A stretch of 36,462 bases of DNA. Origin: a virus. Under the pieces are notes generated by a model. It was not told the origin of the DNA, made no database searches, and saw nothing but the letters and a program-made list of their open reading frames with translations. Location: the IMG/VR virus record IMGVR_UViG_3300047172_000297, positions 1-36,462 of that record; one strand, given 5' to 3'. Below, piece after piece: positions 2,116 to 36,462 of this stretch (position 1 is its first letter; each line of letters begins with the position of its first letter). The translations under genes and the position numbers were made by a program.

Positions 2116-3248
2116 TAGCTGCCGCCGAAAGTGAGTGTGCCGAGGATCGGCAATTGGCCGGCTGAGTAGGTCTGATCAGCCGAAGGGGCAGTGCGGTCGT
2201 GATACGTCTCGCCAGATCCATTGCTGAGGGCGGCGTCCAGGTTGGACATCGGCAGGATCCATGTTCCCCCGCCGCTTGGCAGCATGTCCGGCGCACCGGC
2301 AAAGAACAGTTGGAGCGCCGCCGTTGCCGCTGCCTGTACCGGTACGGTATTCGGCGTCAGCGCGATCGCCACGTTGACCGGCACGAGAGTGAACGCGGTC
2401 ACGAAGACCGACATCCCGAGTGGCTTGCGCTTGGTCGCGTCCGTCAAATAGGCGGTTACGACCTCAATTTCGGTATCGGTCGGCAAGCGTGGTGGAAGAC
2501 CGCTTCCCTGGCTCATCGCCAGGAACACATTCACATTGCCAAGGGAGAGCTGAACCGGCTGGCAGATGGCGTTTTGAAGCACCTCGCCAACCCACTGCGT
2601 ATAGTCCTGGGCTGAGCCACCCGCTCCCCTGAAACGAATTCGCTGGAGAATACGCTGGCGCCAATCCTCGATCGGCTCCAAGTCCTGGCCGTCCGTAATG
2701 CCATCGCCAATCACCGTGGCGGTCTGCGGGTTTAGCCCCTCAACGGGCACCACGAATTCCAGCACGACGCCGGCGGCCAGGTTGCCGGCGCTTCCCGCCA
2801 GGTTGGCGGCTATAGCGAGGGTGCCGGTTCCCGTGTTGCTCAGCGTGCCGGCGGCGGTCGTGGTGTAAAGTGCGCCGGAAGAAACGCTGAGCGCCTCGCC
2901 CGCGGCCACTATAAGCGACGGCGCTCCCAGAACGGTCACACTCCCGGCGGCCGATGTGGGCTGGTCACGGGGCACATTCCAAACCGCCGCGTGCCGCGAT
3001 AGCCAGCGCCAGGCCGTGTCTGGCATTAGCTCCTTCGCGTTGCTGGCCAGGTAAAGCCAGGCATCGGTAACGCTGAGCTCGGCGATGCGCGCATGGACGG
3101 CGAGCGTGGAATTCGGCGACCTGGCGTCAACCACGGCCGCCGGCGCCGTGGGATTTCTGAGCGCGTAGATCCGTGCGAATTCGACTTCGTAAACACTCGC
3201 CGCGCGGTTGCTGATATCGCCGGGCGCCGGTATCGGCCAGCCCGTCAC
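2115..3248 (-). CDS. Baseplate J-like protein (Mu gp47)
   Basis: About 377 residues. I choose the GTG at 3248 over the upstream in-frame ATG at 3293: GTG 3248 overlaps the previous stop as GTGA and is preceded by GAAGAAGG at about 7 nt. The protein carries the baseplate J pattern: N-terminal helices (RAASVYEVEFARIYAL), a beta region rich in Gly/Thr (SVTVLGAPSLIVAAGEAL), 'PVEGLNPQTATVIGDGITDGQDLEPIEDWRQRILQRIR' marking the J-core, and the 'VGEVLQNAICQPVQLSLGNVNVFLA' segment. It is a wedge subunit of the contractile tail baseplate. Neighbours gp46 and gp48 confirm it. Confidence 0.9.
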   Translation of the reverse strand: MTGWPIPAPGDISNRAASVYEVEFARIYALRNPTAPAAVVDARSPNSTLAVHARIAELSVTDAWLYLASNAKELMPDTAWRWLSRHAAVWNVPRDQPTSAAGSVTVLGAPSLIVAAGEALSVSSGALYTTTAAGTLSNTGTGTLAIAANLAGSAGNLAAGVVLEFVVPVEGLNPQTATVIGDGITDGQDLEPIEDWRQRILQRIRFRGAGGSAQDYTQWVGEVLQNAICQPVQLSLGNVNVFLAMSQGSGLPPRLPTDTEIEVVTAYLTDATKRKPLGMSVFVTAFTLVPVNVAIALTPNTVPVQAAATAALQLFFAGAPDMLPSGGGTWILPMSNLDAALSNGSGETYHDRTAPSADQTYSAGQLPILGTLTFGGS

Positions 3249-3697
3249 GAGAGAACCTTCTTCACCGTCACGCTCGTTTTCGCGACGACGCATTGAAGTC
3301 CGAGCACCTGGCGCTGAAGATACGACGCATTGACGCCGACAGAGAGGCCGCTATTTGCAAAATGCTGGAGCGCCTCTTCAGCCGCACTTTGCCCGAGCTC
3401 CTTGGTCTGGCGCGTCGCCTTCGCGCCATCCAAAAGCCAAAGCCTGGAACCGATCAGCTGGCCGCTCAAATCGAGCGCGTCGCCGACCCAACCCTGCCGG
3501 GACATCAACGATCCAGGCGTATAGAAATCACTTTCGACGGTCGGTAAAATATCATCCGGCCGCGCACGGCGGTTGCACCCGAGTGAAATGAGCATCGGCG
3601 TTGCGACGGTGGCATCGAGTGCCAGATCGACGCCGTCGAACCCAAGGTCGCATCGCCCCGTCCGAGCGTTCAACACCAGCGCGTTATCGAGGAACAT
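3245..3697 (-). CDS. Mu gp46-like baseplate protein
   Basis: About 150 residues from ATG 3697; an upstream TTG at 3727 would add ten residues. The ATG is preferred because family members start almost at the 'lg....G.cDl...G.Dl.ld....t..lisLg.drRa..dD' segment, here NARTGRCDLGFDGVDLALD followed by ISLGCNRRARPDD. The middle (ESDFYTPGSLMSRQGWVGDAL) is the characteristic Trp-Gly-D segment of the GP46 family; this protein corresponds to the gpW-type inner wedge subunit. It ends in a GTGA overlap with gp47. The candidate late regulatory motif lies 33 nt upstream of this ATG. Confidence 0.88.
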   Translation of the reverse strand: MFLDNALVLNARTGRCDLGFDGVDLALDATVATPMLISLGCNRRARPDDILPTVESDFYTPGSLMSRQGWVGDALDLSGQLIGSRLWLLDGAKATRQTKELGQSAAEEALQHFANSGLSVGVNASYLQRQVLGLQCVVAKTSVTVKKVLS

Positions 3698-3730
3698 GGC
3701 GGCCAGTTTTCCGCGTGCGCGCGACAAACC

Positions 3731-3754
3731 GGCATGCCCACCGCGGTGGGGTAG
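3731..3754 (-). promoter_or_regulatory. 24-bp dyad motif, copy A (candidate late activator site)
   Basis: On the plus strand this reads GGCATGCCCACCGCGGTGGG followed by GTAG, containing the perfect 14-bp palindrome CCCACCGCGGTGGG. Near-identical copies lie at 16514-16537 and 28773-28796. This copy fills the 60-bp gap between gp45 and gp46 and ends 33 nt upstream of the gp46 ATG. I infer a protein-binding site for late gene control; no clear -10 hexamer is visible downstream. Confidence 0.5.
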
Positions 3755-15018: not shown

Positions 15019-15452
15019 TATCGGTTGAACCTCACCCAGGTGCCATTTTCCAAGCCGGCGAGAATGCCGACGTTCAGCAACGTCAGCGTCGCGCCGCCCA
15101 CGACCGTCGTGCTGCCGAGCGTGCAGCTCGCGTCATCGAGCGCGTAGACCTTCGCGCCGATGTTCGCGCCGGTGATCGTGTTCGTGCCGACGGCGCTCAC
15201 CGGAACCTTGGCGACGATATCGCGCTGGGCCACCACAAAGCCCGTGCTGGCCGCGCCGCTGCCGCTGTTGTTCAGCTCGCGATCGGAAACGCCGGCGAAG
15301 GTCAGCGTGCCGCCGGCGGAAACCGGCTCGACGTTGCTGTTCGCGTCGATCGCCAGCATCGAGCCGGCGTAGACGTGGGCGCCGGCCGCCACGTTGTAGC
15401 CGAAATTCGGCCCCGTGCGGATCGGCAGCTTAGCATTATTGCTAAGAGGCAT
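15018..15452 (-). CDS. Capsid decoration-like protein (DUF2190 type)
   Basis: 144 residues from ATG 15452, which overlaps the stop of protease I by one base (TGATG); an in-frame start at 15545 would run into I and is rejected. The protein is Ala/Gly/Val-rich beta: 'RTGPNFGYNVAAGAHVYAGSMLAIDANSNVEPVSAGGTLTFAGVSDRELNNSG', then 'VAKVPVSAVGTNTITGANIGAKVYALDDASCTL', ending in 'ILAGLENGTWVRFNR'. The pattern 'a...vyaG.mva.d..G.v......... f.Gv.......' and 'G..vyw.dd' is that of small capsid-decorating proteins; position between scaffold and major head fits. Confidence 0.8.
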   Translation of the reverse strand: MPLSNNAKLPIRTGPNFGYNVAAGAHVYAGSMLAIDANSNVEPVSAGGTLTFAGVSDRELNNSGSGAASTGFVVAQRDIVAKVPVSAVGTNTITGANIGAKVYALDDASCTLGSTTVVGGATLTLLNVGILAGLENGTWVRFNR

Positions 15453-16030
15453 CAGGCGGCATCCTTCTTCATCTTCTTGTTTTTCATGAACGCCTCTTTC
15501 GAGATGTTCATTTTCTCGCAGGCCATCTTCTCCTCGGGCGCCCAATCGTCGCCGTCGCCCGGCTTGGTCGCATGGAGCGCGATCAGCTGATCGCCGTTGA
15601 TGCCGCCGGAATGCAGGCTGGGAAGCCCGTTGATTTCCTTCTCGACGGCGGCGGGATCAGCCGCGTGCCGCGTGATGAAATGATCCCGCAGCGGCGCGAT
15701 CGGCTTGCCGGCCTTGATTGCGCCGTCCACGAACATCACAGCGCGATCGCGCGCCCGCTCGCTGGTCAGCGTCGTCAGCTGCGTCTGCAGGGTGATCACC
15801 TGCTGCGACATGCGCTGCACCTCCGTGCCGCCGCCGGCGCGCTGCGTTTGCAGCTCAACGACCAGGCCATCCGCATCCTTCGCGGTGGCGCCGGCCGCCG
15901 CGGCAATCCGCTGCAATTGCGCGGAGTGCGCGGTCACCGCGGTGGTGGCGGCCGTGGCGGCGGCCAGCACAGCGGCGTCGTCGGCCGTCTCGGGCAAACC
16001 GAGCGCGGCGCGTATGGCTTTCGGATCCAT
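15452..16030 (-). CDS. Z: Nested scaffold protein Z (internal start in I)
   Basis: An in-frame ATG at 16030 (Met151 of I; MDPKAIRAALGLPETADDAAV) is preceded by CAGGAA about 7 nt upstream, an apt ribosome site inside the gene. The product would be 192 residues comprising only the helical scaffold half. In Mu, scaffold Z is produced from exactly such an internal start in gene I; use of this start here is inferred from that precedent, the Shine-Dalgarno and the domain boundary. Confidence 0.65.
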   Translation of the reverse strand: MDPKAIRAALGLPETADDAAVLAAATAATTAVTAHSAQLQRIAAAAGATAKDADGLVVELQTQRAGGGTEVQRMSQQVITLQTQLTTLTSERARDRAVMFVDGAIKAGKPIAPLRDHFITRHAADPAAVEKEINGLPSLHSGGINGDQLIALHATKPGDGDDWAPEEKMACEKMNISKEAFMKNKKMKKDAA

Positions 16031-16480
16031 TCCGGGTTCCTGTTCAGAGTGAAGTGTTTCAAGGTCGGGTAGGTTCGGCGTATTGGTCAGCGCAGCGCGC
16101 AGAACCCGCTCGACCGCACCGGTCTTCTTGTTGACGCCCAGCACAGGGCTGATGCCGCGATAAGCGTGCTCGCTGATCAATACGGTCCCGGACGGCGTCC
16201 ATTCGACGCGGCCCCAAATGCCGTCTGCACGAGACTGCATTTCCACGATCCAGCCACGCGCGGGGCTCGGCTGGCCGGTCGTCATCGCATAATCGGTCGC
16301 GTGATTTTCATCGACCGCGATCGGACCGTTCTTCAGGCTGGCCGCAATGACCTGCTCCGCGCTCTGCAGCACGTAAGGCCCACGGCCATCGACGCCGCCG
16401 AACGAACCGGCCGGAACAAGGTGCACCCAAGCAGTTGGCTCGGCGCCGGCCGGAAAAATGCTGTGGAGGAGGACTTTCAT
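15452..16480 (-). CDS. I: Head maturation protease I (Mu gp32)
   Basis: 342 residues, ATG 16480. The first 140 residues are the protease: 'AWVHLVPAGSFGGVDGRGPYVLQSAEQVIAASLKNGPIAVDENHATDYAMTTGQPSPARGWIVEMQSRADGIWGRVEWTPSGTVLISEHAYRGISPVL'. The conserved Asp-His and 'ARGWI..m..r.dGiwg.v.Wt..g...i....YRgiSPvf' blocks match Mu protease I. The C-terminal half is a helical scaffold (coiled coil around residues 220-245, Lys-rich end KNKKMKKDAA). In Mu, I digests the scaffold and itself during head maturation. A candidate late regulatory motif ends 33 nt before the start codon. Confidence 0.92.
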   Translation of the reverse strand: MKVLLHSIFPAGAEPTAWVHLVPAGSFGGVDGRGPYVLQSAEQVIAASLKNGPIAVDENHATDYAMTTGQPSPARGWIVEMQSRADGIWGRVEWTPSGTVLISEHAYRGISPVLGVNKKTGAVERVLRAALTNTPNLPDLETLHSEQEPGMDPKAIRAALGLPETADDAAVLAAATAATTAVTAHSAQLQRIAAAAGATAKDADGLVVELQTQRAGGGTEVQRMSQQVITLQTQLTTLTSERARDRAVMFVDGAIKAGKPIAPLRDHFITRHAADPAAVEKEINGLPSLHSGGINGDQLIALHATKPGDGDDWAPEEKMACEKMNISKEAFMKNKKMKKDAA

Positions 16481-16748
16481 CGCCGCTACGATGCGATGCG
16501 GTCGCGTAGTGACGGCATGCCCACGGCGGCGGGGTAGCAGCGCGTCGCCTCGCGCCCGAAAATGCTACGGCAGACGACCCCGGAATTCCAGCCCGTACAG
16601 CCCTGCGGCAGTTCGAAGGTCCAAGCCCCGCTCCCAGGTACGCCTCAGCCGCGCTACCCAGTTCTTACGGGCCTTATTCGCTACTCAATTTCCTGTGTGG
16701 ATCTGCAAGGTGCAAGCGCGTGGTGCTTCGTCCACGAACGAGGCGATC
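16481..16748. other. Gene-free leader between G and I
   Basis: 268 bp without a confident gene. It contains motif copy B. The minus strand holds a 52-codon open frame from 16644 to TAG 16488-16486 without a usable start codon upstream of the motif (…AWTFELPQGCTGW…REATRCYPAAVGMPS…). This frame could be a gene remnant or chance. No tRNA or other RNA gene was recognised. Confidence 0.5.
16514..16537 (-). promoter_or_regulatory. 24-bp motif, copy B, before protease I
   Basis: Plus strand GGCATGCCCACGGCGGCGGG then GTAG; it differs from copy A at two positions that weaken the dyad. It is in the 268-bp gene-free stretch 5' of I and, like copy A, ends exactly 33 nt before the start codon. Together with copy C it also shares the flank TGAC on the GGCATG side. 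The site corresponds to the location of the Mu PI late promoter. Confidence 0.5.
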
Positions 16749-18590: not shown

Positions 18591-18811
18591 GGGCGCGGTC
18601 TGCCCTCGTTATCCGCTTCGAGACTGTCCATCATTTTCCGAATATCGGCGATAAAGCGCCTCACGGCCTCAGTTCCCACTGGACCGTCTAGTCGAAAATT
18701 CATCAGCGTCATTTCGGTATAATGGGCCGCATGGTTGGCTAGGATCGCCGTCACGCGCGCGAACTGGGCGCGGGAAACCGGGCGCCGCCGCTCGCGATTA
18801 ACGCCAGCCAT
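18587..18811 (-). CDS. Small conserved protein between portal and F
   Basis: 74 residues from ATG 18811, which overlaps the portal stop by one base (TGATG); the longer in-frame start at 18928 lies inside the portal gene. It begins MAGVNRERRRPVSRAQFARVTAILANH and has a helical basic N-terminus and a second helix (GTEAVRRFIADIRKMMDSLEADNE). Not recognised as a family. Coupled on both sides, so it is probably translated in the head operon. Confidence 0.7.
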   Translation of the reverse strand: MAGVNRERRRPVSRAQFARVTAILANHAAHYTEMTLMNFRLDGPVGTEAVRRFIADIRKMMDSLEADNEGRPRP

Positions 18812-20682
18812 CACTCGCCCCAGGCGGACGTGTCGATATCGAGCTTGCGCGCCTTTGCCCGAATGCGACGCCGCGCCTCCGCCTTTTCCTCGGCCGTAAG
18901 CCCTGCGGTTCGCCGCACCATGTCCCAAGCCAGACGCACATGCGCCGCGTCGTGGATCGGCAGAGCGCGCTTGCCCGGGACCGCGAAATCGTCGTCTGGA
19001 AGTCGATCGCGCACGCTCGAGCTCAGCGCCGCATGCCGCTCGATCGCGGTGCGTGACACCAGGTCGGAGACGACGTCCGCCTGGCCCACCAGGTTGGCCA
19101 GGGCCATGCCACGCGACATTGCCTCCGCGAACTCATCCGCCGGCAGCTTCAGCGCCGATAACCGGTGGACCAGGTCCTGCATATCGGTAGCCTGCTCGAA
19201 CTGCGCCCGCACGATTTCGATCATGCCGCCCATCGCTCCGGCCGCATCCTGCTCGAGGCGCGCGACCATGGCTTCGACCAGCTCCGGCGGGGCCTCAGAG
19301 TGCTTGGTGATCAGCTGCGAGAGCCATGGCTGCCTGCCCAGCTGCTGCTGAAGCTCTGGCGGCGTCACGGCCAGCGAGGGCACCGGCGTCTTTTCCACCG
19401 GCTCCGGCGGGCCGCCGATCACCTCGTCGCCCTCTTCGGGCTTCGATAATCCCAGGCGCTCGCGGATCTCGCTGGCCTTCACCTTTAGCCCGATCGGCGC
19501 CAGGTCGGCGACGCCGGCGATCACATCCTTCAGCGGCACTTCATCCGGCCGGCCGATCAGCAGCTTCGGATATTTCTTCTGCGGGCCATACGTGAACGCC
19601 ACCATGGCGTGCACCACCTGGCGGGTCAGCGTCGTGGAAAGCAGGCCGGCATCGAAGCGCTCAACATCCTGCTCGGCCGCGCGGTGCTCCTGGCCAACTG
19701 CATGCCCGCCATGGATTGCTTCCGTGCCGGCGGTGCCCCCGAGAACAACCTTGCTCACTTCGCGGTTTAGCCAGTCGGCGCGCTTTTCGTAGAGCGTGGA
19801 GCCCGCGGTGCGCTCGCTGTCTTTGACGAACTCCATCTCCATGCTTTTGGGGATGATGGCGGCCACGTCGCCGGCAATGGAGGAGACCGCGCGCCACAGC
19901 ACGCGCTTATCGGTTTCGCTGGCCTCTGGCCCGTAGCGGCCGATGCGGATCGGCATACCGTATGCCTGGCAGAACAACGCCCAGTCACGCAGCGTGAAGG
20001 CGCTGAACATCCAGAGAAACGCGATGATGCGCGTCAGGCCGCCGCGCATGATAGTGCCGGATTTGCTGCGGTGCCTGTGCACCACGAATTTATGCGGCTG
20101 TAGGTCGATGAAGCCCGCTTCGCCGCGCAGCCACAGCGTGCTGCCATCCTTCCAGCTCAGCTCGAAGAAACGCTGCGGCCTGTAGCAGAATTCCTTCGGC
20201 ACCACGCGGCCTGGCTCGGTCGACCAGAGAATTTCGTGGACCGAGTATCCCTTACCGATCGCGTCGAACATGTCCATCATCGCGTCGGCCAGTACGCCGT
20301 CGTCGATCCAGTTTTGCACGAGCTCGGCGTGCTTCTGGCTTTCTGGATCGTCGCCGGCCGGCTCGATCGTAACCGGCAACTGCACCACCTGGCGCTTCCG
20401 CTTTGAAAGAACCGAGTAGTAGTGCGGAAAGAGCTCCTCGATTTCCTCCGCCAGGATCATCCAATCCAGCGACGAACCGTTATCGCTGGCCCGCATGATG
20501 GTGCCTAGCCGCACGGGGTCCATGCCGTAGGCAAGGTGTCCGGAGAATGGGGGCCGGCCGACCGTCGCATCGACCGGCGAGATTTCGTCGCGCAGAGAGG
20601 CGATATAGGTGCTCGAAATCACCTTCCCGCTCTCATCGATCAGCACGCCAGTTTTGTCAGCCACGGTCGTTCCCATCTTCAT
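18811..20682 (-). CDS. Portal protein (Mu gp29, DUF935) with long C-terminal extension
   Basis: 623 residues, ATG 20682 (an in-frame ATG at 20676 has a slightly better spaced GAAGAA). DUF935 portal pattern: 'MDPVRLGTIMRASDNGSSLDWMILAEEIEELFPHYYSVLSKRKRQVVQLPVTIEPAGDD', 'AIGKGYSVHEILWSTEPGRVVPKEFCYRPQRFFEL', 'HRHRSKSGTIMRGGLTRIIAFLWMFSAFTLRDWALFCQAYGMPIRIGRYG' and 'GGHAVGQEHRAAEQDVERFDAGLL'. It forms the DNA entry ring. After residue 440 there is an extension of about 180 residues, with 'LPIHDAAHVRLAWDMVRRTAGLTAEEKAEARRRIRAKARKLDID' at 575-618, matching the small DUF6582-like helical module common on phage structural proteins. Terminase and F flank it, apart from the accessory insert upstream. 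Confidence 0.92.
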   Translation of the reverse strand: MKMGTTVADKTGVLIDESGKVISSTYIASLRDEISPVDATVGRPPFSGHLAYGMDPVRLGTIMRASDNGSSLDWMILAEEIEELFPHYYSVLSKRKRQVVQLPVTIEPAGDDPESQKHAELVQNWIDDGVLADAMMDMFDAIGKGYSVHEILWSTEPGRVVPKEFCYRPQRFFELSWKDGSTLWLRGEAGFIDLQPHKFVVHRHRSKSGTIMRGGLTRIIAFLWMFSAFTLRDWALFCQAYGMPIRIGRYGPEASETDKRVLWRAVSSIAGDVAAIIPKSMEMEFVKDSERTAGSTLYEKRADWLNREVSKVVLGGTAGTEAIHGGHAVGQEHRAAEQDVERFDAGLLSTTLTRQVVHAMVAFTYGPQKKYPKLLIGRPDEVPLKDVIAGVADLAPIGLKVKASEIRERLGLSKPEEGDEVIGGPPEPVEKTPVPSLAVTPPELQQQLGRQPWLSQLITKHSEAPPELVEAMVARLEQDAAGAMGGMIEIVRAQFEQATDMQDLVHRLSALKLPADEFAEAMSRGMALANLVGQADVVSDLVSRTAIERHAALSSSVRDRLPDDDFAVPGKRALPIHDAAHVRLAWDMVRRTAGLTAEEKAEARRRIRAKARKLDIDTSAWGE

Positions 20683-20708
20683 TCTTCAGAAAAAGAAGCA
20701 AAAAACTT

Positions 20709-20930
20709 TTATTCGCTTTGTTTGGTCGCCTTGATGAATTCCAGGGCGTGTGTCGCCACACCAATCCAGGCCCGCCAGAGAGGCATGGTGCTACTCACCA
20801 CGATTAGGTTCCCCATCGGTGTGTAGACCGTTTCCGGAGCCGGAAAGGCGTGGACCGTTTCGTGCGGGTCGTTGCCAGCCGCGGCACACATGCGAACGGC
20901 GAGCTGCTGGACATCCTCTGGCGTGCTCAT
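20709..20930 (-). CDS. Hypothetical 73-residue protein in accessory insert
   Basis: ATG 20930 overlaps the sulfotransferase stop (ATGA). The sequence begins MSTPEDVQQLAVRMCAAAG and has a beta stretch 'YTPMGNLIVVSSTMPLWRAWIGVATHALEFIK'. No known family recognised. The hydrophobic centre could be a short membrane-associated segment but is not a clear TM helix. It closes the accessory insert before the portal; 26 bp separate its stop from the portal ATG. Confidence 0.65.
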   Translation of the reverse strand: MSTPEDVQQLAVRMCAAAGNDPHETVHAFPAPETVYTPMGNLIVVSSTMPLWRAWIGVATHALEFIKATKQSE

Positions 20931-24835: not shown

Positions 24836-24934
24836 CTGGCCTCCGTTGGTTGGTGAAGCGGCCCCGCGTCTTAGCGGGGCCGCACCAAGTTCTTTTTTGA
24901 AAAAAAGAACCAAAAAGTTTTTTGCTTTTTTTCT
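24836..24934. other. Hairpin-rich intergenic stretch
   Basis: Two perfect inverted repeats: GCGGCCCCGC/GCGGGGCCGC (24858-24867 and 24874-24883, 6-nt loop) and GTTCTTTTTT/AAAAAAGAAC (24889-24898 and 24901-24910). An A/T-rich block to 24934 follows, containing AAAAGTTTTTTGCTT (24913-24927), whose exact inverse lies at 20696-20710. Read on the plus strand the first hairpin is followed 9 nt later by a T-run; on the minus strand no T-run follows either hairpin. May insulate the gene before from the small membrane genes. Confidence 0.5.
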
Positions 24935-25731: not shown

Positions 25732-25937
25732 AGCCCGTTCTCCCGTTGCGCCTTCAGCGCCTTCAGCGTCGCGGCAACCGCACCCATGTCGCGCAAGCGC
25801 TGGTCAGACATTTTCTGCGTCATGCGGCCGGCCGAAACCTGTTTCGCGTAGAAATGGCGCCGTTGCGCGAGCTCGCGTTCCACCTCGCGGATCTGGGCTT
25901 CGAGCGGAACTCCGTCTTGGCCGAACAGGTCAGCCAT
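25728..25937 (-). CDS. Small coiled-coil protein after endolysin
   Basis: 69 residues; ATG 25937 overlaps the endolysin end by 8 nt. The sequence MADLFGQDGVPLEAQIREVERELAQRRHFYAKQVSAGRMTQKMSDQRLRDMGAVAATLKALKAQREN is a helical heptad-like protein of the type found in many phages next to lysis genes ('Ei.rel..R...Y...V..grm......r.l..m.av..TL..l'). Role unknown; it was previously noted only as a conserved phage orphan pattern, so I give no function. Confidence 0.7.
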   Translation of the reverse strand: MADLFGQDGVPLEAQIREVERELAQRRHFYAKQVSAGRMTQKMSDQRLRDMGAVAATLKALKAQRENGL

Positions 25938-26484
25938 TGGCGGCCTCCTCGGCGATCCAACTCAGCGCCGTCGCTTCGTCCGTATCGATCCGGCGGTCCC
26001 AGCCTTTTTCAAAAAGGCGCGCGCTGGACAGGCTGTTCACGTAGGCCTTGTGCGCGGCACTGAGTTCTTTCACGAGGAACGCCGCGTCGGTTGCTTGCGC
26101 GCGGGCGACAACATCCGGGCTCATCCGGAAATCTTCGGGCAGCGCGAGCACGCGCTTCATCAGGCGCGCTGCCCAACCTGGCCCGGAACCAAACGCGATT
26201 TCGAACGCGATCAGATCCACGCCCGTGGGCAGTTCATCACCGCAAACCGGGAGCCAATACCAGGCGTGCCGCAGATCCTGCAGCTCGGAGGCATTTGCAT
26301 TCTTGAATTCATCGACCGAGGGCGACGGCTGGCCGTGCGCCACACGCCAAGCGGCGAAGACCTCATGCGTGATGCCTTCCCGCGTCGCGCCACCACTATC
26401 TCCCGACGTGACGTGAAATTCCTGCCCGTCATTCTCGGGAAGCAGCGCTACAGCCTGCACGCGCAGAAAGCCCTGGTAGCTCAT
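25930..26484 (-). CDS. GH108-like endolysin
   Basis: 184 residues; ATG 26484 overlaps the small-terminase stop (ATGA). Residues 17-37 'ENDGQEFHVTSGDSGGATREG' followed by IT resemble the GH108 muramidase motif 'EGGYvn...DpGGaTn.GIt', with E17 in the position of the catalytic Glu but the GGY replaced and three residues inserted. 'FKNANASELQDLRHAWYW', 'GVDLIAFEIAFGSGPGWAARLMKRVL' and the C-terminal 'FEKGWDRRIDTDEA' also match family features (the latter as 'f..GW..Rv......A'). It should cut peptidoglycan in lysis. No signal peptide; release would need a holin. Confidence 0.78.
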   Translation of the reverse strand: MSYQGFLRVQAVALLPENDGQEFHVTSGDSGGATREGITHEVFAAWRVAHGQPSPSVDEFKNANASELQDLRHAWYWLPVCGDELPTGVDLIAFEIAFGSGPGWAARLMKRVLALPEDFRMSPDVVARAQATDAAFLVKELSAAHKAYVNSLSSARLFEKGWDRRIDTDEATALSWIAEEAANG

Positions 26485-27919: not shown

Positions 27920-28222
27920 TCAGGCTGATAGGCTCGGAGGCGCCGGCGTTCGCACCGCGGCCAGGCGCTCACGGATCGCGGCCTGCAACAGAAGCTCCAC
28001 TCCGGTGTTGACCGAGATGTCGTTAATCAGCAGATGCGGCGCGGCGTAGAACAAAGCCGCGATCGCCGCCGTCCGCGTCATGTCGCCGGTGAGCACATGC
28101 GCTAGCAGGCCCGCCGCCACGCCCAACAGGGCGCCTATGCCGTGGATCGTGGTGGGCTGGCGCAGCCACCCCAGAAAACCCGCCCACAGGCGCCCTGGCA
28201 GGCTCACGGCGCCAATTCCCAT
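27920..28222 (-). CDS. Holin-like membrane protein
   Basis: 100 residues, ATG 28222, overlapping the lipoprotein end by 19 nt. Hydrophobic segments at about residues 26-50 'IHGIGALLGVAAGLLAHVLTGDM' and 'RTAAIAALFYAAPHLLIND', with a hydrophilic C-terminus, suit a two-TM holin-type protein. Position after a lipoprotein and before the packaging genes is the Mu lysis region. It would permeabilise the membrane to release the endolysin; no holin family was recognised with certainty. Confidence 0.65.
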   Translation of the reverse strand: MGIGAVSLPGRLWAGFLGWLRQPTTIHGIGALLGVAAGLLAHVLTGDMTRTAAIAALFYAAPHLLINDISVNTGVELLLQAAIRERLAAVRTPAPPSLSA

Positions 28223-28686
28223 GCAATCACCGGCGCCACAGGCGCCGCGACCGCCGAGAAGCCCAGGAACCCGCCGCCGACTTGAAGGGCACTCAGCGCC
28301 AGGTCGATCTCGAGTTTCCGCCCCGGCGAAATCACGCCGGCCGGAAGACCGTTGATCGCGTTCTGAATATCCGTCACGACACCGGCAAGGCTCGTCGGCG
28401 GCACGTCGCCAGTCAGGCCAGCAACTTCACCGTCAAGCGCCTTCTCGGCCGCGGCAATCGCTAGGGCATCCTTGGGGTGCACCACAACCCAGGCTGCGGC
28501 GTCGGCTTTAACGCCGGCATACAGCGCCTGAATGCGCGCCGGCCAGGCGGGTGCCGCCACCGATGCAGGCGGCACCTGCGTTGTCGGCCCGCTGGTAACG
28601 GGTGCGGTGGCTTGCGGCGCGCACGCCGAAACCGCCAAGCAAATCGCGAATGCGAGAATGACGTAGAGAGATCTCTCGAATTTCAT
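28204..28686 (-). CDS. Lipoprotein at start of late lysis block
   Basis: 160 residues, ATG 28686. A basic N-terminus and hydrophobic helix (MKFERSLYVILAFAICLAVSAC) end in a lipobox VSAC, acylated Cys at about residue 22. The mature part is Ala/Pro-rich helical ('ALAIAAAEKALDGEVAGLTGDVPPTSLAGVVTDIQNAINGLP') with no catalytic motif. Being first after the candidate late promoter, it is likely involved in lysis (an outer-membrane disruptor such as an o-spanin role is possible) or superinfection exclusion. It is longer than typical o-spanins. Confidence 0.7.
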   Translation of the reverse strand: MKFERSLYVILAFAICLAVSACAPQATAPVTSGPTTQVPPASVAAPAWPARIQALYAGVKADAAAWVVVHPKDALAIAAAEKALDGEVAGLTGDVPPTSLAGVVTDIQNAINGLPAGVISPGRKLEIDLALSALQVGGGFLGFSAVAAPVAPVIAWELAP

Positions 28687-28798
28687 CGGTTGAGGGGCTC
28701 CTGCGAAACCCAGCAGATATTTGCTGGTAAATTCGGCTTGAGCCCGACCGTATGCCGCCGTCAGATCATGACGGCATGCCCACCGCAGTGGGGTAGCG
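28687..28798 (-). promoter_or_regulatory. Candidate Plys-like region: motif copy C and two hairpins
   Basis: The 112-bp gap between the Mor/C gene and the lysis genes holds copy C of the repeated motif (28773-28796; plus strand GGCATGCCCACCGCAGTGGG then GTAG). An overlapping inverted repeat GCCGTCA/TGACGGC lies at 28757-28763 and 28769-28775, and a 6-bp stem CCAGCA/TGCTGG at 28710-28715 and 28722-28727 is near the lipoprotein start. This is where Mu has Plys, directly after C. No convincing -10 hexamer is seen. Confidence 0.55.
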
Positions 28799-29224
28799 TT
28801 AAATCAGTTCGAAATTGAGTTGCTTCGTGCCGATATCGGGCTGCACCTGGCGCATGCCCTTGTGGCTTCGCGCCATCGGTGTCCAGTCGCTGCTGGCAAG
28901 CCGCTGCACGAAACTCTCTGTCGCCCCGACCATAAGGGCGATTTCCGGGTGGCTACGGCCGCCCTCTGCCATCAAAACCCGCGCGCGCCACTCGCGGCAC
29001 AGGGGAAGTCGCATCAATGTACCGCCGAAACTGCCTGCCAGCCGCATCAAGGAAACCTCATCCAGGTGCGCCGTCAAGAAGCTGGTCCGAACATTCTCCG
29101 TCTTGGGCACGTGCAGCCGCGTGCCGCCACGCAGAGCCAGCAGGCGCATGGTGTTTTCAACACCGATGCAGCCAACCAGTTCTGCCACCTCTGGCGGCGG
29201 TTCGGGTGCGCGCGCTGGACGCAT
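28799..29224 (-). CDS. C: Mor/C-family late transcription activator
   Basis: 141 residues from ATG 29224, one nt after the previous stop (TAA A ATG); an upstream in-frame start at 29311 runs through that gene. The sequence has the Mor/C pattern: 'AELVGCIGVENTMRLLALRGGTRLHVPKTENVRTSFLTAHLDEVSLMRLAGSFGGTLMRLPLCREWRARVLMAEGGRSHPEIALMVGATESFVQRLAS'. Key features are the dimerisation 'GGtrl.vP' strand and the C-terminal HTH 'HPEIALMVGATESFVQRL'. By position (last gene before the lysis block) it corresponds to Mu C, the activator of late promoters. The motif copies are candidate binding sites. Confidence 0.85.
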   Translation of the reverse strand: MRPARAPEPPPEVAELVGCIGVENTMRLLALRGGTRLHVPKTENVRTSFLTAHLDEVSLMRLAGSFGGTLMRLPLCREWRARVLMAEGGRSHPEIALMVGATESFVQRLASSDWTPMARSHKGMRQVQPDIGTKQLNFELI

Positions 29225-29225
29225 T

Positions 29226-29543
29226 TTAGGTGGTCGTCGCCGGCGCGCGTGCCGGCGTAATCCGAAACCCACGCGGCAGCGCATCGAGCAGCGCGTCCGC
29301 CAGGGCGTCATTAACCGGCCCCGCTAGGGTGAAGCTCACCACATGCGAAATGTCGTTCTCGCGGCTGCGGAAGACCAGGCGGATATTTAGCGCACCGCTT
29401 TTCGTCAGATAGGGCCTGGTCTTCTCGGCCAGGCGCATGCCCTCGTCGATGAACATGGCGCAGGGCTTGGGAATGCTGGAAAGGAAGAGCGCGGACGGCA
29501 TCGAGGCGAGATACCGCCCGAACCGTGCGTGGCGTCGGCTCAC
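29226..29543 (-). CDS. Hypothetical 105-residue protein before Mor/C gene
   Basis: GTG 29543 overlaps the previous stop (GTGA). Begins MSRRHARFGRYLASMPSALFLSSIPKPCAMFIDEGMRLAEKTRPYLTKSGALNIRLVFRSREN and ends 'ALPRGFRITPARAPATTT'. Alpha/beta, no family recognised. It is translationally coupled to the 70-residue gene upstream and separated from the activator start by one base, so it belongs to the same middle transcript. Confidence 0.65.
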   Translation of the reverse strand: MSRRHARFGRYLASMPSALFLSSIPKPCAMFIDEGMRLAEKTRPYLTKSGALNIRLVFRSRENDISHVVSFTLAGPVNDALADALLDALPRGFRITPARAPATTT

Positions 29544-29752
29544 GCCGCCACCACCGGCGCCAGGCTGGCGCGGCCGTCCTGATAGCCTTCCTCGCGTGCC
29601 TGCTCGATCGCCGCCGTAACCGTCGGCATCACGAGCTGCTCGGCATATTCCAAAGCAGGAACGGCGGCCAAATGCGGCTTCATCGTGCTGCCGAGCCGCA
29701 CCGCCTCGCGGACGGCGCTTTTCAGCATTTTCCCAACCTCAGCCTCGTTCAA
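29540..29752 (-). CDS. Hypothetical 70-residue protein
   Basis: TTG 29752 has AGGAGG about 6 nt upstream and overlaps the GemA stop as TTGA; an alternative ATG at 29728 lacks such spacing. Sequence is helical: MNEAEVGKMLKSAVREAVRLGSTMKPHLAAVPALEYAEQLVMPTVTAAIEQAREEGYQDGRASLAPVVAA. No family recognised. TTG start is notable given the strong ribosome site. Confidence 0.65.
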   Translation of the reverse strand: MNEAEVGKMLKSAVREAVRLGSTMKPHLAAVPALEYAEQLVMPTVTAAIEQAREEGYQDGRASLAPVVAA

Positions 29753-30216
29753 CTAAGCCTCCTCTTTTGGGTGTTTTTCGGATTTGCGCGCAGCCTGGCG
29801 CGCCAACCCTTCAGGCCCTCGATCACCAGGCTGATCTGTCCCGGATCGAGAAATTCGGGCGCGTCTACGCCGTCCGGATGCATTGCGTTTTTGGTCTGCC
29901 GGCGCACGAACGCGCGCAGCTCGGCGTTGCCCGTCACACCGTCCAATAGCGGACGGATATCCTTCCAGATGGCGTAGATCATGCGCACCTGCGGGTTCGG
30001 GCTGATCGGCCTGGCGCCCTTCGGCTTCCAGCCCAGCCGCTTGAATTCTTCCAGCAGCTGCACGAGCTGCTGCTCGCTGCATTTCGCGCTGCTATTCTGG
30101 CCGGTCACCCGCAGCAGGATCGCGCGGTAATCCGCGTCGACCAGGCGCATTTCCTTCTTGGCGATATGCACCTTCGCCAGCACCGCGCGCCGCGGATCGG
30201 CCGCTGTCGCGCTCAT
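29749..30216 (-). CDS. gemA: GemA-like regulatory protein (DUF1018, Mu gp16)
   Basis: 155 residues; ATG 30216 overlaps the previous stop (ATGA), preferred over the in-frame ATG at 30228. The DUF1018 pattern is clear: 'AKVHIAKKEMRLVDADYRAILLRVTGQNSSAKCSEQQLVQLLEEFKRLGWKPKG', 'QVRMIYAIWKDIRPL' and 'RAFVRRQT...HPDGVDAPEFLDPGQISLVIEGLKGW'. In Mu, GemA (gp16) affects host gene expression and DNA relaxation. Downstream of this gene comes the middle region. Confidence 0.88.
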   Translation of the reverse strand: MSATAADPRRAVLAKVHIAKKEMRLVDADYRAILLRVTGQNSSAKCSEQQLVQLLEEFKRLGWKPKGARPISPNPQVRMIYAIWKDIRPLLDGVTGNAELRAFVRRQTKNAMHPDGVDAPEFLDPGQISLVIEGLKGWRARLRANPKNTQKRRLS

Positions 30217-30884
30217 AGCGGGTCGCATCCAGCCTGCTCGGCCAGATCAATCCAGGCCTCGATCGCCGTGCGCGACGTGAGCGCATCGACATCGCGACGC
30301 AATCGTTCAACGTCCGGACCCCAAAAACCCAGCCCCGCAATCCATTGGCGGAAATAGGCACGGAGGATCGTAATCTGTTCCGGCGTCAGCGCGTCGCCGC
30401 CAAGGTAGGCATGCACCGCCGGCGCAAGAACACCAGTGCTCTCATGCTTCCAATATCCCGGCAGGAAGCCCCAGGTCGGCGATCGCTGCGCGGCGCTCAT
30501 GGGTTCTCTGCACGCTTGTGTGCGACAAAATTCATCCTGATATCGGTAGCATTTATCGAAGTAAGCGGATGTCTCTGCAATAAGCGCATCCGTCTTTTGA
30601 TCGTCTGAAAGCCCGGCCTCGATCACGGCGACCCGCTTGCGCAGATCGTGATACATCCTAATGCATTTGCGGCGGTGCCTCCTAACCTCGGCCAGTGTGC
30701 CAAAGGAAAACACGCTACCATGCCGATACATCTCAGCATTACAAACGCGCCCGCTCCTAATTGGCTTGAGTAAAATGCCGAAATCGCCGACCCAGTCGAC
30801 CAAGCACACGTCCCAAGCATCAGGCGGCTTGCCCCACTCTGCTACGATCGCGCAGTCGTCGTCCTGCAATGGCGCATCGATCAT
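30213..30884 (-). CDS. Cys-rich early protein with phage C-terminal module
   Basis: 223 residues; ATG 30884 overlaps the previous stop (ATGA). The first 60 residues (MIDAPLQDDDCAIVAEWGKPPDAWDVCLVDWVGDFGILLKPI) and a helical middle rich in Cys, Arg and Tyr (CIRMYHDLRKRV, CYRYQDEFCRTQACREP) are unrecognised. The last 55 residues 'LGGDALTPEQITILRAYFRQWIAGLGFWGPDVERLRRDVDALTSRTAIEAWIDLAEQAGCDPL' match a short module seen at the end of many alphaproteobacterial phage proteins ('Lt.eqi..lraYlrqWi......W......LR..v..i.t...i..wi......g.dPl'). Eight or so Cys suggest metal binding. Confidence 0.65.
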   Translation of the reverse strand: MIDAPLQDDDCAIVAEWGKPPDAWDVCLVDWVGDFGILLKPIRSGRVCNAEMYRHGSVFSFGTLAEVRRHRRKCIRMYHDLRKRVAVIEAGLSDDQKTDALIAETSAYFDKCYRYQDEFCRTQACREPMSAAQRSPTWGFLPGYWKHESTGVLAPAVHAYLGGDALTPEQITILRAYFRQWIAGLGFWGPDVERLRRDVDALTSRTAIEAWIDLAEQAGCDPL

Positions 30885-35931: not shown

Positions 35932-36462
35932 TCATGGGCGGTCGCCTTCATGGTTTTTTTCGCGCCCGTCCTCGTGGCGTAACAGCCAGATTGTGGCGAT
36001 ATCGGCCACGCCGAAAAGCGTAATGAGCTCAGACGGCGCATCGCCTAAATCGATTGAGCTGTCGTTCCACCATTCGTGGACGCTTGCTGCGGCCCGGACC
36101 AAGGCGCGCATGATACCGAAACCATCTGGCATGCCGAGCTGGCGAGCATGGGCGAGCGCCAAGCCGGTTTCGGGCACGATTTCATCCGGTATCGCCGGCA
36201 CAGGCTCATCAATAACCGGCTGCGGCATTGGCGAAACACCGATCGCCAGCCAGTCCAAACTGACGCCGCATAGCTGCGCCATCGCGACGAGTATCGGACG
36301 TGTAGGCTCCTGCCGCCCCACCTCGTATGCTCTTATGTTGCCGTCGCTCACGCCCAGGGCTGCGGCAAGAGCTCTCGCGGACTTGTAGCCGGCCCTTTTT
36401 CGGGCGAGCTGCAGACGCGCACCGAAGGCGATGGCATCGCCAGGGTCCACCGAGCGGGTCAT
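35932..36462 (-). CDS. XRE-family regulator (candidate repressor)
   Basis: 176 residues; ATG at the window's right edge, so an earlier start cannot be excluded. 'FGARLQLARKRAGYKSARALAAALGVSDGNIRAYEVGRQEPTRPILVAMAQLCGVSLDWLAIG' (about 13-75) is a classical HTH-XRE domain: 'lR..Rk..g.sq..lA..lGvs...i..yE.G...P....l..ia..l.v...wL'. The C-terminal 90 residues are unrecognised (LVRAAASVHEWWNDSSIDLGDAPSELITLFGVADIATIWLLR). It is probably the lysogeny repressor or an early regulator; unlike Mu c, it is on the same strand as A and B, 38 bp from the next gene. Confidence 0.75.
   Translation of the reverse strand: MTRSVDPGDAIAFGARLQLARKRAGYKSARALAAALGVSDGNIRAYEVGRQEPTRPILVAMAQLCGVSLDWLAIGVSPMPQPVIDEPVPAIPDEIVPETGLALAHARQLGMPDGFGIMRALVRAAASVHEWWNDSSIDLGDAPSELITLFGVADIATIWLLRHEDGREKNHEGDRP

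Follow-up and report, generated by a model that had tools for sequence, protein, structure and literature searches.

A dyad repeated ahead of three late operons of a Mu-like phage is probably the operator of its Mor/C-family activator

The window analyzed here, a 36,462-bp IMG/VR virus record, represents a Mu-like phage on the minus strand and encodes MuA, MuB, GemA, a Mor/C-type late activator, protease I and a gp46-like wedge protein. A 24-bp dyad is present in three copies in this window, and comparison with related phages makes it very probable (roughly 0.88) that this dyad serves as the operator for the only activator of the Mor/C family found in the phage, driving three late operons, two of which would be leaderless. 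The features on which this reading is built, together with the landmarks used for comparison, are:

28799..29311, minus strand: Mor/C-type late transcription activator gene, 170 aa (phrog_836, E 1.1e-15)
28773..28796, minus strand: candidate operator copy C (R1, Plys-like), from sequence and equivalents in relatives
28747..28752, minus strand: putative -10 hexamer TACGGT of copy C, from geometry; predicted +1 near 28740
28698..28701, minus strand: GGAG resembling a Shine-Dalgarno site, ahead of the displaced first late gene (anti-SD energy -6.6 kcal/mol)
28204..28686, minus strand: gene that opens the lysis/head operon (160 aa), without a family match
16514..16537, minus strand: candidate operator copy B (R2, PI-like)
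16488..16493, minus strand: putative -10 hexamer CATCGT of copy B; predicted +1 16481/16480
15452..16480, minus strand: Mu-like head maturation protease I, ATG at the predicted +1 (phrog_328, E 2.2e-63)
3731..3754, minus strand: candidate operator copy A (R3), gp45/gp46 junction
3705..3710, minus strand: putative -10 hexamer AAAACT of copy A; predicted +1 3698/3697
3245..3697, minus strand: gp46-like baseplate wedge gene, ATG at the predicted +1 (phrog_180, E 4.2e-19)
29749-30228: GemA
25930-26484: endolysin
35932-36462: HTH repressor

An earlier note on this DNA had described three near-identical intergenic copies of the repeat, and all three were reproduced at 3731-3754 (A), 16514-16537 (B) and 28773-28796 (C), each in a gap preceding a late operon. 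They agree at 23/24 (A and C), 22/24 (A and B) and 21/24 (B and C) positions. A fourth copy was not found on either strand of the window with up to three mismatches allowed, and 100 dinucleotide shuffles contained 0 copies, indicating that none is expected by chance. Because the genes of the window are on the minus strand, the functional orientation of the dyad is written as CTACCCCACCGCGGTGGGCATGCC; the dyad symmetry of its core, CCCACCGCGGTGGG, is perfect in copy A but imperfect in copies B and C. Copy C begins 2 nt past the Mor/C stop codon and copy A 3 nt past the stop of the gp45-like gene, while copy B is 212 nt from the end of the preceding ORF. The gap of 33 nt that the note had counted from copies A and B to their start codons (ATG 3697 and ATG 16480) is correct. 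An exact-motif scan of IMG/VR returned one other contig only, which is a relative; the dyad pattern was absent from the two prophage-bearing genomes searched, and Rfam and tRNA scans yielded nothing. The window, otherwise GC-rich, also contains two AT-rich palindromic elements (20691-20723 and 24900-24932) that are mutual reverse complements (79%).

Three comparisons of sequence identify the window protein as a member of the Mor/C family: its match to the phrog_836 late transcriptional activators, the match of 22/30 of its relatives to PF08765, and an hhalign profile match to Mu Mor and C (E 7.7e-6, probability 84). By itself, the window protein had no PF08765 match at E 0.01. A profile search for the fold found 1rr7 weakly (E 0.048), and in an AlphaFold model the C-terminal HTH block is helical; Foldseek with this model gave no useful match and did not retrieve Mor 1RR7. 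The gene lies where the early/middle region ends, immediately ahead of the lysis operon, and no second Mor/C was found among the other early ORFs of the window that were scanned. In a tblastn search with Mor/C against named phages, only Microcystis phage Mwe-Yong1 was recovered.

The earlier note had proposed absence of the motif from close relatives as a refutation test. In G001, an IMG/VR relative of 38,948 bp whose Mor/C is 82% identical, the motif is not absent: all three copies are present in the same gaps, with the same layout. A protease-based search of IMG/VR for relatives found none. Mor/C loci at 29-51% identity were without the motif, and several had another dyad directly past the Mor/C stop codon (for example, GGGTGCAGCTGCACCC); we therefore tested whether each phage possesses its own dyad at the same three places. 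Mor/C loci from one order were reached via a Gluconobacter genome, about 33 kb downstream was taken where the contig allowed, and the protease, gp45, gp46, capsid and terminase genes were located by profile searches, yielding roughly 20 Mu-like phages, some from hosts of the Acetobacterales and others from metagenomes. The comparison covered three gaps: R1, past the Mor/C stop; R2, before the protease; and R3, the gp45/gp46 junction.

In nearly every phage, one 20-mer dyad was common to its own R1, R2 and R3, as illustrated by the window (CTACCCCACNNNNGTGGGCA), G002 (CAGGTATCGNNCGATACCTG), G004 (CACCTACNGCNGTAGGTATT), G111 (ACCCTGTTATCTGACAGTCT) and G099 (GTGCTGAAATCCTTCAGC). When gene-anchored regions were compared with 200 random draws per phage, which sets a floor of P 0.005, this sharing was significant (P < 0.05) in 19/20 phages, with 13 at the floor. 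A triple test with regions centered on already-found dyads was circular and was replaced by this gene-anchored test. Mean operator identity was 0.84 within a phage versus 0.40 between phages; operators were weak or not found in G056, G053 and G142. The same fixed rules were applied to a held-out set of 10 further Mor/C loci, 6 of which had a protease at about the expected distance. Three identical 20-mers were present in G009, G166a and G166b were significant, and G049 was borderline (P 0.075) with a matching ATG spacing. G142 and G145 failed under these rules, although in G145 a shared element lies just beyond the R1 limit, and in the remaining 4/10 loci the module was lacking or nothing was given. 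As a separate observation, in other Alphaproteobacteria perfect or near-perfect dyads occur past Mor/C and again 5-9 kb downstream (L106, L108, L113, L104, L100, L123 and L125; for example, GACCCTGACAATTGTCAGGG and ATGCGGAACTGGTTCCGCAT). The unanchored search for recurrent 20-mers was noisy in non-Alphaproteobacteria, and from these we cite only phages with clear R1/R2 pairs.

The spacing between the dyad and the start codon is also conserved. In 48/57 promoters an ATG occurs 43-48.5 nt from the dyad center (R2, 19/19 phages; R3, 17/19; R1, 12/19), where ATGs at 43-49 nt were picked among candidates near the dyad and the R2 and R3 candidates were required to be in frame with HMM-found ORFs. 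In the window, this distance is 46.5 nt for copies A and B and 99.5 nt for copy C. No -10 hexamer had been evident to the earlier reader; AAAACT, CATCGT and TACGGT are nonetheless found at a position that is strongly conserved across relatives. In the pooled promoters, the sigma70-type -10 score had its sole peak at hexamers starting 13 and 12 nt before the ATG, and 62% of promoters scored above 2 at these positions compared to 3.7% of random positions (P 1e-24). The distance from dyad center to hexamer start was 32.5 nt in 32/48 promoters and within 1.5 nt of this value in 46/48. Given the position of the hexamer relative to the dyad, the start codon is therefore placed at the predicted transcription start, assuming the standard spacing from -10 to +1. 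The note's remark that little room is left for a promoter plus leader thus holds for the leader but not for the -10 element, which fits, the start codon apparently being at +1.

Shine-Dalgarno pairing is depleted at these ATGs, with an energy of -2.6, whereas MCP/TerL starts reach -5.6 (P 2e-7) and random positions -3.5; most displaced starts have a strong Shine-Dalgarno site, as does the gene following copy C. The placement of the -10 hexamer, together with an ATG near +1 that is without a Shine-Dalgarno site, therefore leads us to predict that the late mRNAs of the protease and gp46 in the window are leaderless. The spacers between the R3 operator and its -10 hexamer (e.g., window 3711-3730) have an additional feature, in that alternating CG tracts of at least 6 nt are present in 11/17, compared to 5% of random 24-mers; such tracts might make it easier for the activator to untwist the DNA.

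Operator sequence diverges together with Mor/C. The Mantel correlation between operator distance and Mor/C distance was 0.72, and 0.67 given TerL, whereas TerL retained only 0.17 given the Mor/C HTH block; these tests are inflated by linkage and shared ancestry, part of which remains. With R2 and R3 only, which are 8-25 kb from the activator, Mor/C kept a partial correlation of 0.42 given five late proteins (P 0.0003). Among early proteins, compared in the 14-17 phages having early regions, the MuA correlation was lost once Mor/C was controlled, while partial correlations were also kept by GemA (0.30), h846 (0.36) and MuB (0.16), those of GemA and h846 being expected from linkage because both are near Mor/C. 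The protease, which adjoins R2, also keeps some partial correlation. Two pairs of phages are mosaics. G113 and G147 have TerL proteins that are 94% identical and the same R2 and R3, but differ sharply in the C-terminal (HTH) part of Mor/C and in R1, where local identity is 42-50% compared to about 70-80% around; the R1 of G113 does not resemble its R2 and R3. G166a and G166b (L305-L308), two prophages in one genome, have 0 mismatches over the last 23 kb compared, while Mor/C with R1 and neighbors, about 1.3 kb, is about 85% identical. Judged by these identities, both pairs are natural swaps of the activator together with its adjacent site, and R1 evidently travels with the activator while R2 and R3 lag. 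The earlier note had proposed that the motif is an operator or activator site for Mor/C in a late regulon of the Mu type, and both the relatives and this co-variation support that proposal.

Elements shared between R1 and R2 were also found in cultivated phages, including Ochrobactrum POA1180 (CCTGACANTGTCAGG), Chromohalobacter YPCBV-1 (20/20 identical), Shewanella MuM16-2 and the Pseudomonas phages MP29, D3112 and DMS3 (CGTTGAACCCCTTC); the same search showed nothing in B3. As in the window, the element of these Casadabanvirus phages (D3112, DMS3, MP29) lies past the late activator and before the protease, but MP29 differs in having only two copies, which are weakly palindromic. An ATG is located 43.5-44.5 nt from the MP29 element (distances counted by hand), and the one at R2, 44.5 nt from the center, shares the reading frame of the protease and precedes its annotated start by 126 nt. 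Translation from this ATG regains an N-terminal AWIQVTPAGEF that is matched by AWVHLVPAGSF in the window, so the MP29 (L172) protease (I) start, 18702-18828, appears to be misannotated by 42 codons; the layout is the same in L176 (DMS3) and L177 (D3112). Downstream of its protease-side element, YPCBV-1 has a -10 hexamer, GATACT, at the Mor distance, and the annotated start is about 20 nt past the predicted +1; this phage probably keeps a leader. A search of the literature found no paper describing the Casadabanvirus elements. A 14-base Casadabanvirus pattern was also searched in IMG/VR, but it was too short, giving mostly scattered single matches, and nothing was drawn from it. We also observed that Casadabanvirus anti-CRISPR genes are directly upstream of the newly recognized protease promoter (L172 17996-18663, L176 18401-19000, L177 18927-19760).

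Based on the data presented above, a Mor/C dimer produced from the early operon would bind the dyad, centered about 44-45 bp upstream of the transcription start in place of a -35 element, and would recruit host sigma70-type RNA polymerase to the -10 hexamer about 32.5 bp downstream of the dyad center. Three late operons would thereby be switched on, namely the lysis/head operon that follows Mor/C, the protease/capsid/tail operon and the baseplate operon that begins with gp46. For the protease and gp46 operons, transcription is predicted to begin at the AUG or a few nt before it, yielding leaderless messages. The lysis operon of the window would have a conventional leader that includes a Shine-Dalgarno site. 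The geometry is fixed across related phages, while the operator sequence changes along with Mor/C at R1, R2 and R3 alike.

A dyad near a promoter would also suit a repressor, and since the phage encodes a repressor of the HTH type (35932-36462) as well as a phrog_2345 regulator, the late operons could instead be repressed or timed by another regulator (repressor c, Ner-like or phrog_2345) bound at the dyad. We consider this very unlikely, given that repressor divergence is not significantly correlated with that of the operator (r 0.09, P 0.18) and the phrog_2345 link is lost given Mor/C (0.12, P 0.12), whereas Mor/C keeps r 0.67-0.80 given either one. In addition, the early region, where repressor operators belong, has no close operator match (best 13-16/20, at scattered places), and in nearly every phage one copy lies past Mor/C. 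A position directly past stop codons, seen for copies A and C, would also be consistent with an RNA hairpin (CCCAC-N4-GTGGG) acting as a terminator or RNA processing site between operons, and the stem is kept in these two copies, with a G-U pair in B. We find this scarcely credible, however, as no U-run follows the stem, the distance is fixed to the -10 hexamer and the ATG rather than to the upstream stop (212 nt from the ORF end for copy B), and a terminator does not need an identical sequence three times per phage that is different in the next.

An alternative of a different kind accepts the dyad as the operator but not the leaderless mRNAs, with transcription originating further upstream or translation starting elsewhere. 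As -10 elements the hexamers match weakly, and they lie in GC-rich DNA; in Mu, Plys and PI have annotated ribosome-binding sites and a short leader. We regard this as unlikely in view of the sharp -10 peak at 13 and 12 nt before the ATG, Shine-Dalgarno pairing that is below random and well below that of other late genes, and the ATG found at the same distance past the protease-side operator in MP29, DMS3 and D3112; in MP29 this ATG is in frame, and translation from it recovers the conserved N-terminal part of the protease. Operators of the Mor/C activator with leaderless protease and gp46 messages thus remain our preferred reading.

More tentatively, and with somewhat less than even confidence, we propose that Mu-like phages rewrite their late regulatory code as a unit, the activator HTH and R1 first with R2 and R3 following, and that in these lineages, DMS3 and D3112 of Pseudomonas among them, the late structural operons are translated from leaderless mRNAs. 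If true, such rewriting would insulate co-resident Mu-like prophages from each other. To our knowledge, the Mu activator code is known for one phage; the roughly 20 natural pairs of activator and operator, alike in geometry but different in sequence, could make Mor/C recognition decodable from genomes, and the shared geometry offers a simple means of locating late promoters in transposable phages. Leaderless late operons, if true, would explain missed gene starts such as that of the MP29 protease, and raise the question of why structural proteins are made without Shine-Dalgarno initiation. In the literature searched, neither these operators nor leaderless late genes of Mu-like phages are described. 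DMS3 and D3112 make the regulon testable in a laboratory strain.

The proposed system can be compared with that of Mu, where the Mor dyad, two 5-bp arms, is centered at -43.5 and replaces the -35 element alongside a -10 hexamer (PMC4390567, PMC4287176), and where C likewise binds a dyad element (PMC4287176). The geometry of Mor at Pm predicts 31.5 nt from center to hexamer, close to the 32.5 nt found here, although the arms are 6 bp apart at Pm and 4 bp apart in the window. Only one Mor/C was found in the window, with an apparently direct late step and no visible Mor-to-C relay. The layout resembles that of Plys, PI, PP and Pmom, with the activator gene directly before the lysis operon, a promoter before protease I and another in the tail region, but the third site is at gp45/gp46 rather than inside gp43 as in Mu (PP). 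The operator sequence is unrelated to that of the Mu C promoters, as the earlier note had recognized: Mu promoter oligonucleotides share CATAACCCC-like elements, which the window motif lacks. The same R1/R2 search on Mu did not detect Plys and PI, the Mu sites sharing too little. Mu late mRNAs have short leaders with ribosome-binding sites, whereas in the window the ATG is at the predicted +1 for two of three sites. Leaderless mRNAs of bacteria and phages, such as that of lambda cI, have the AUG at the 5' end and no Shine-Dalgarno sequence. Compared to these, the leaderless messages proposed here are those of activator-controlled late structural operons and would characterize a phage lineage.
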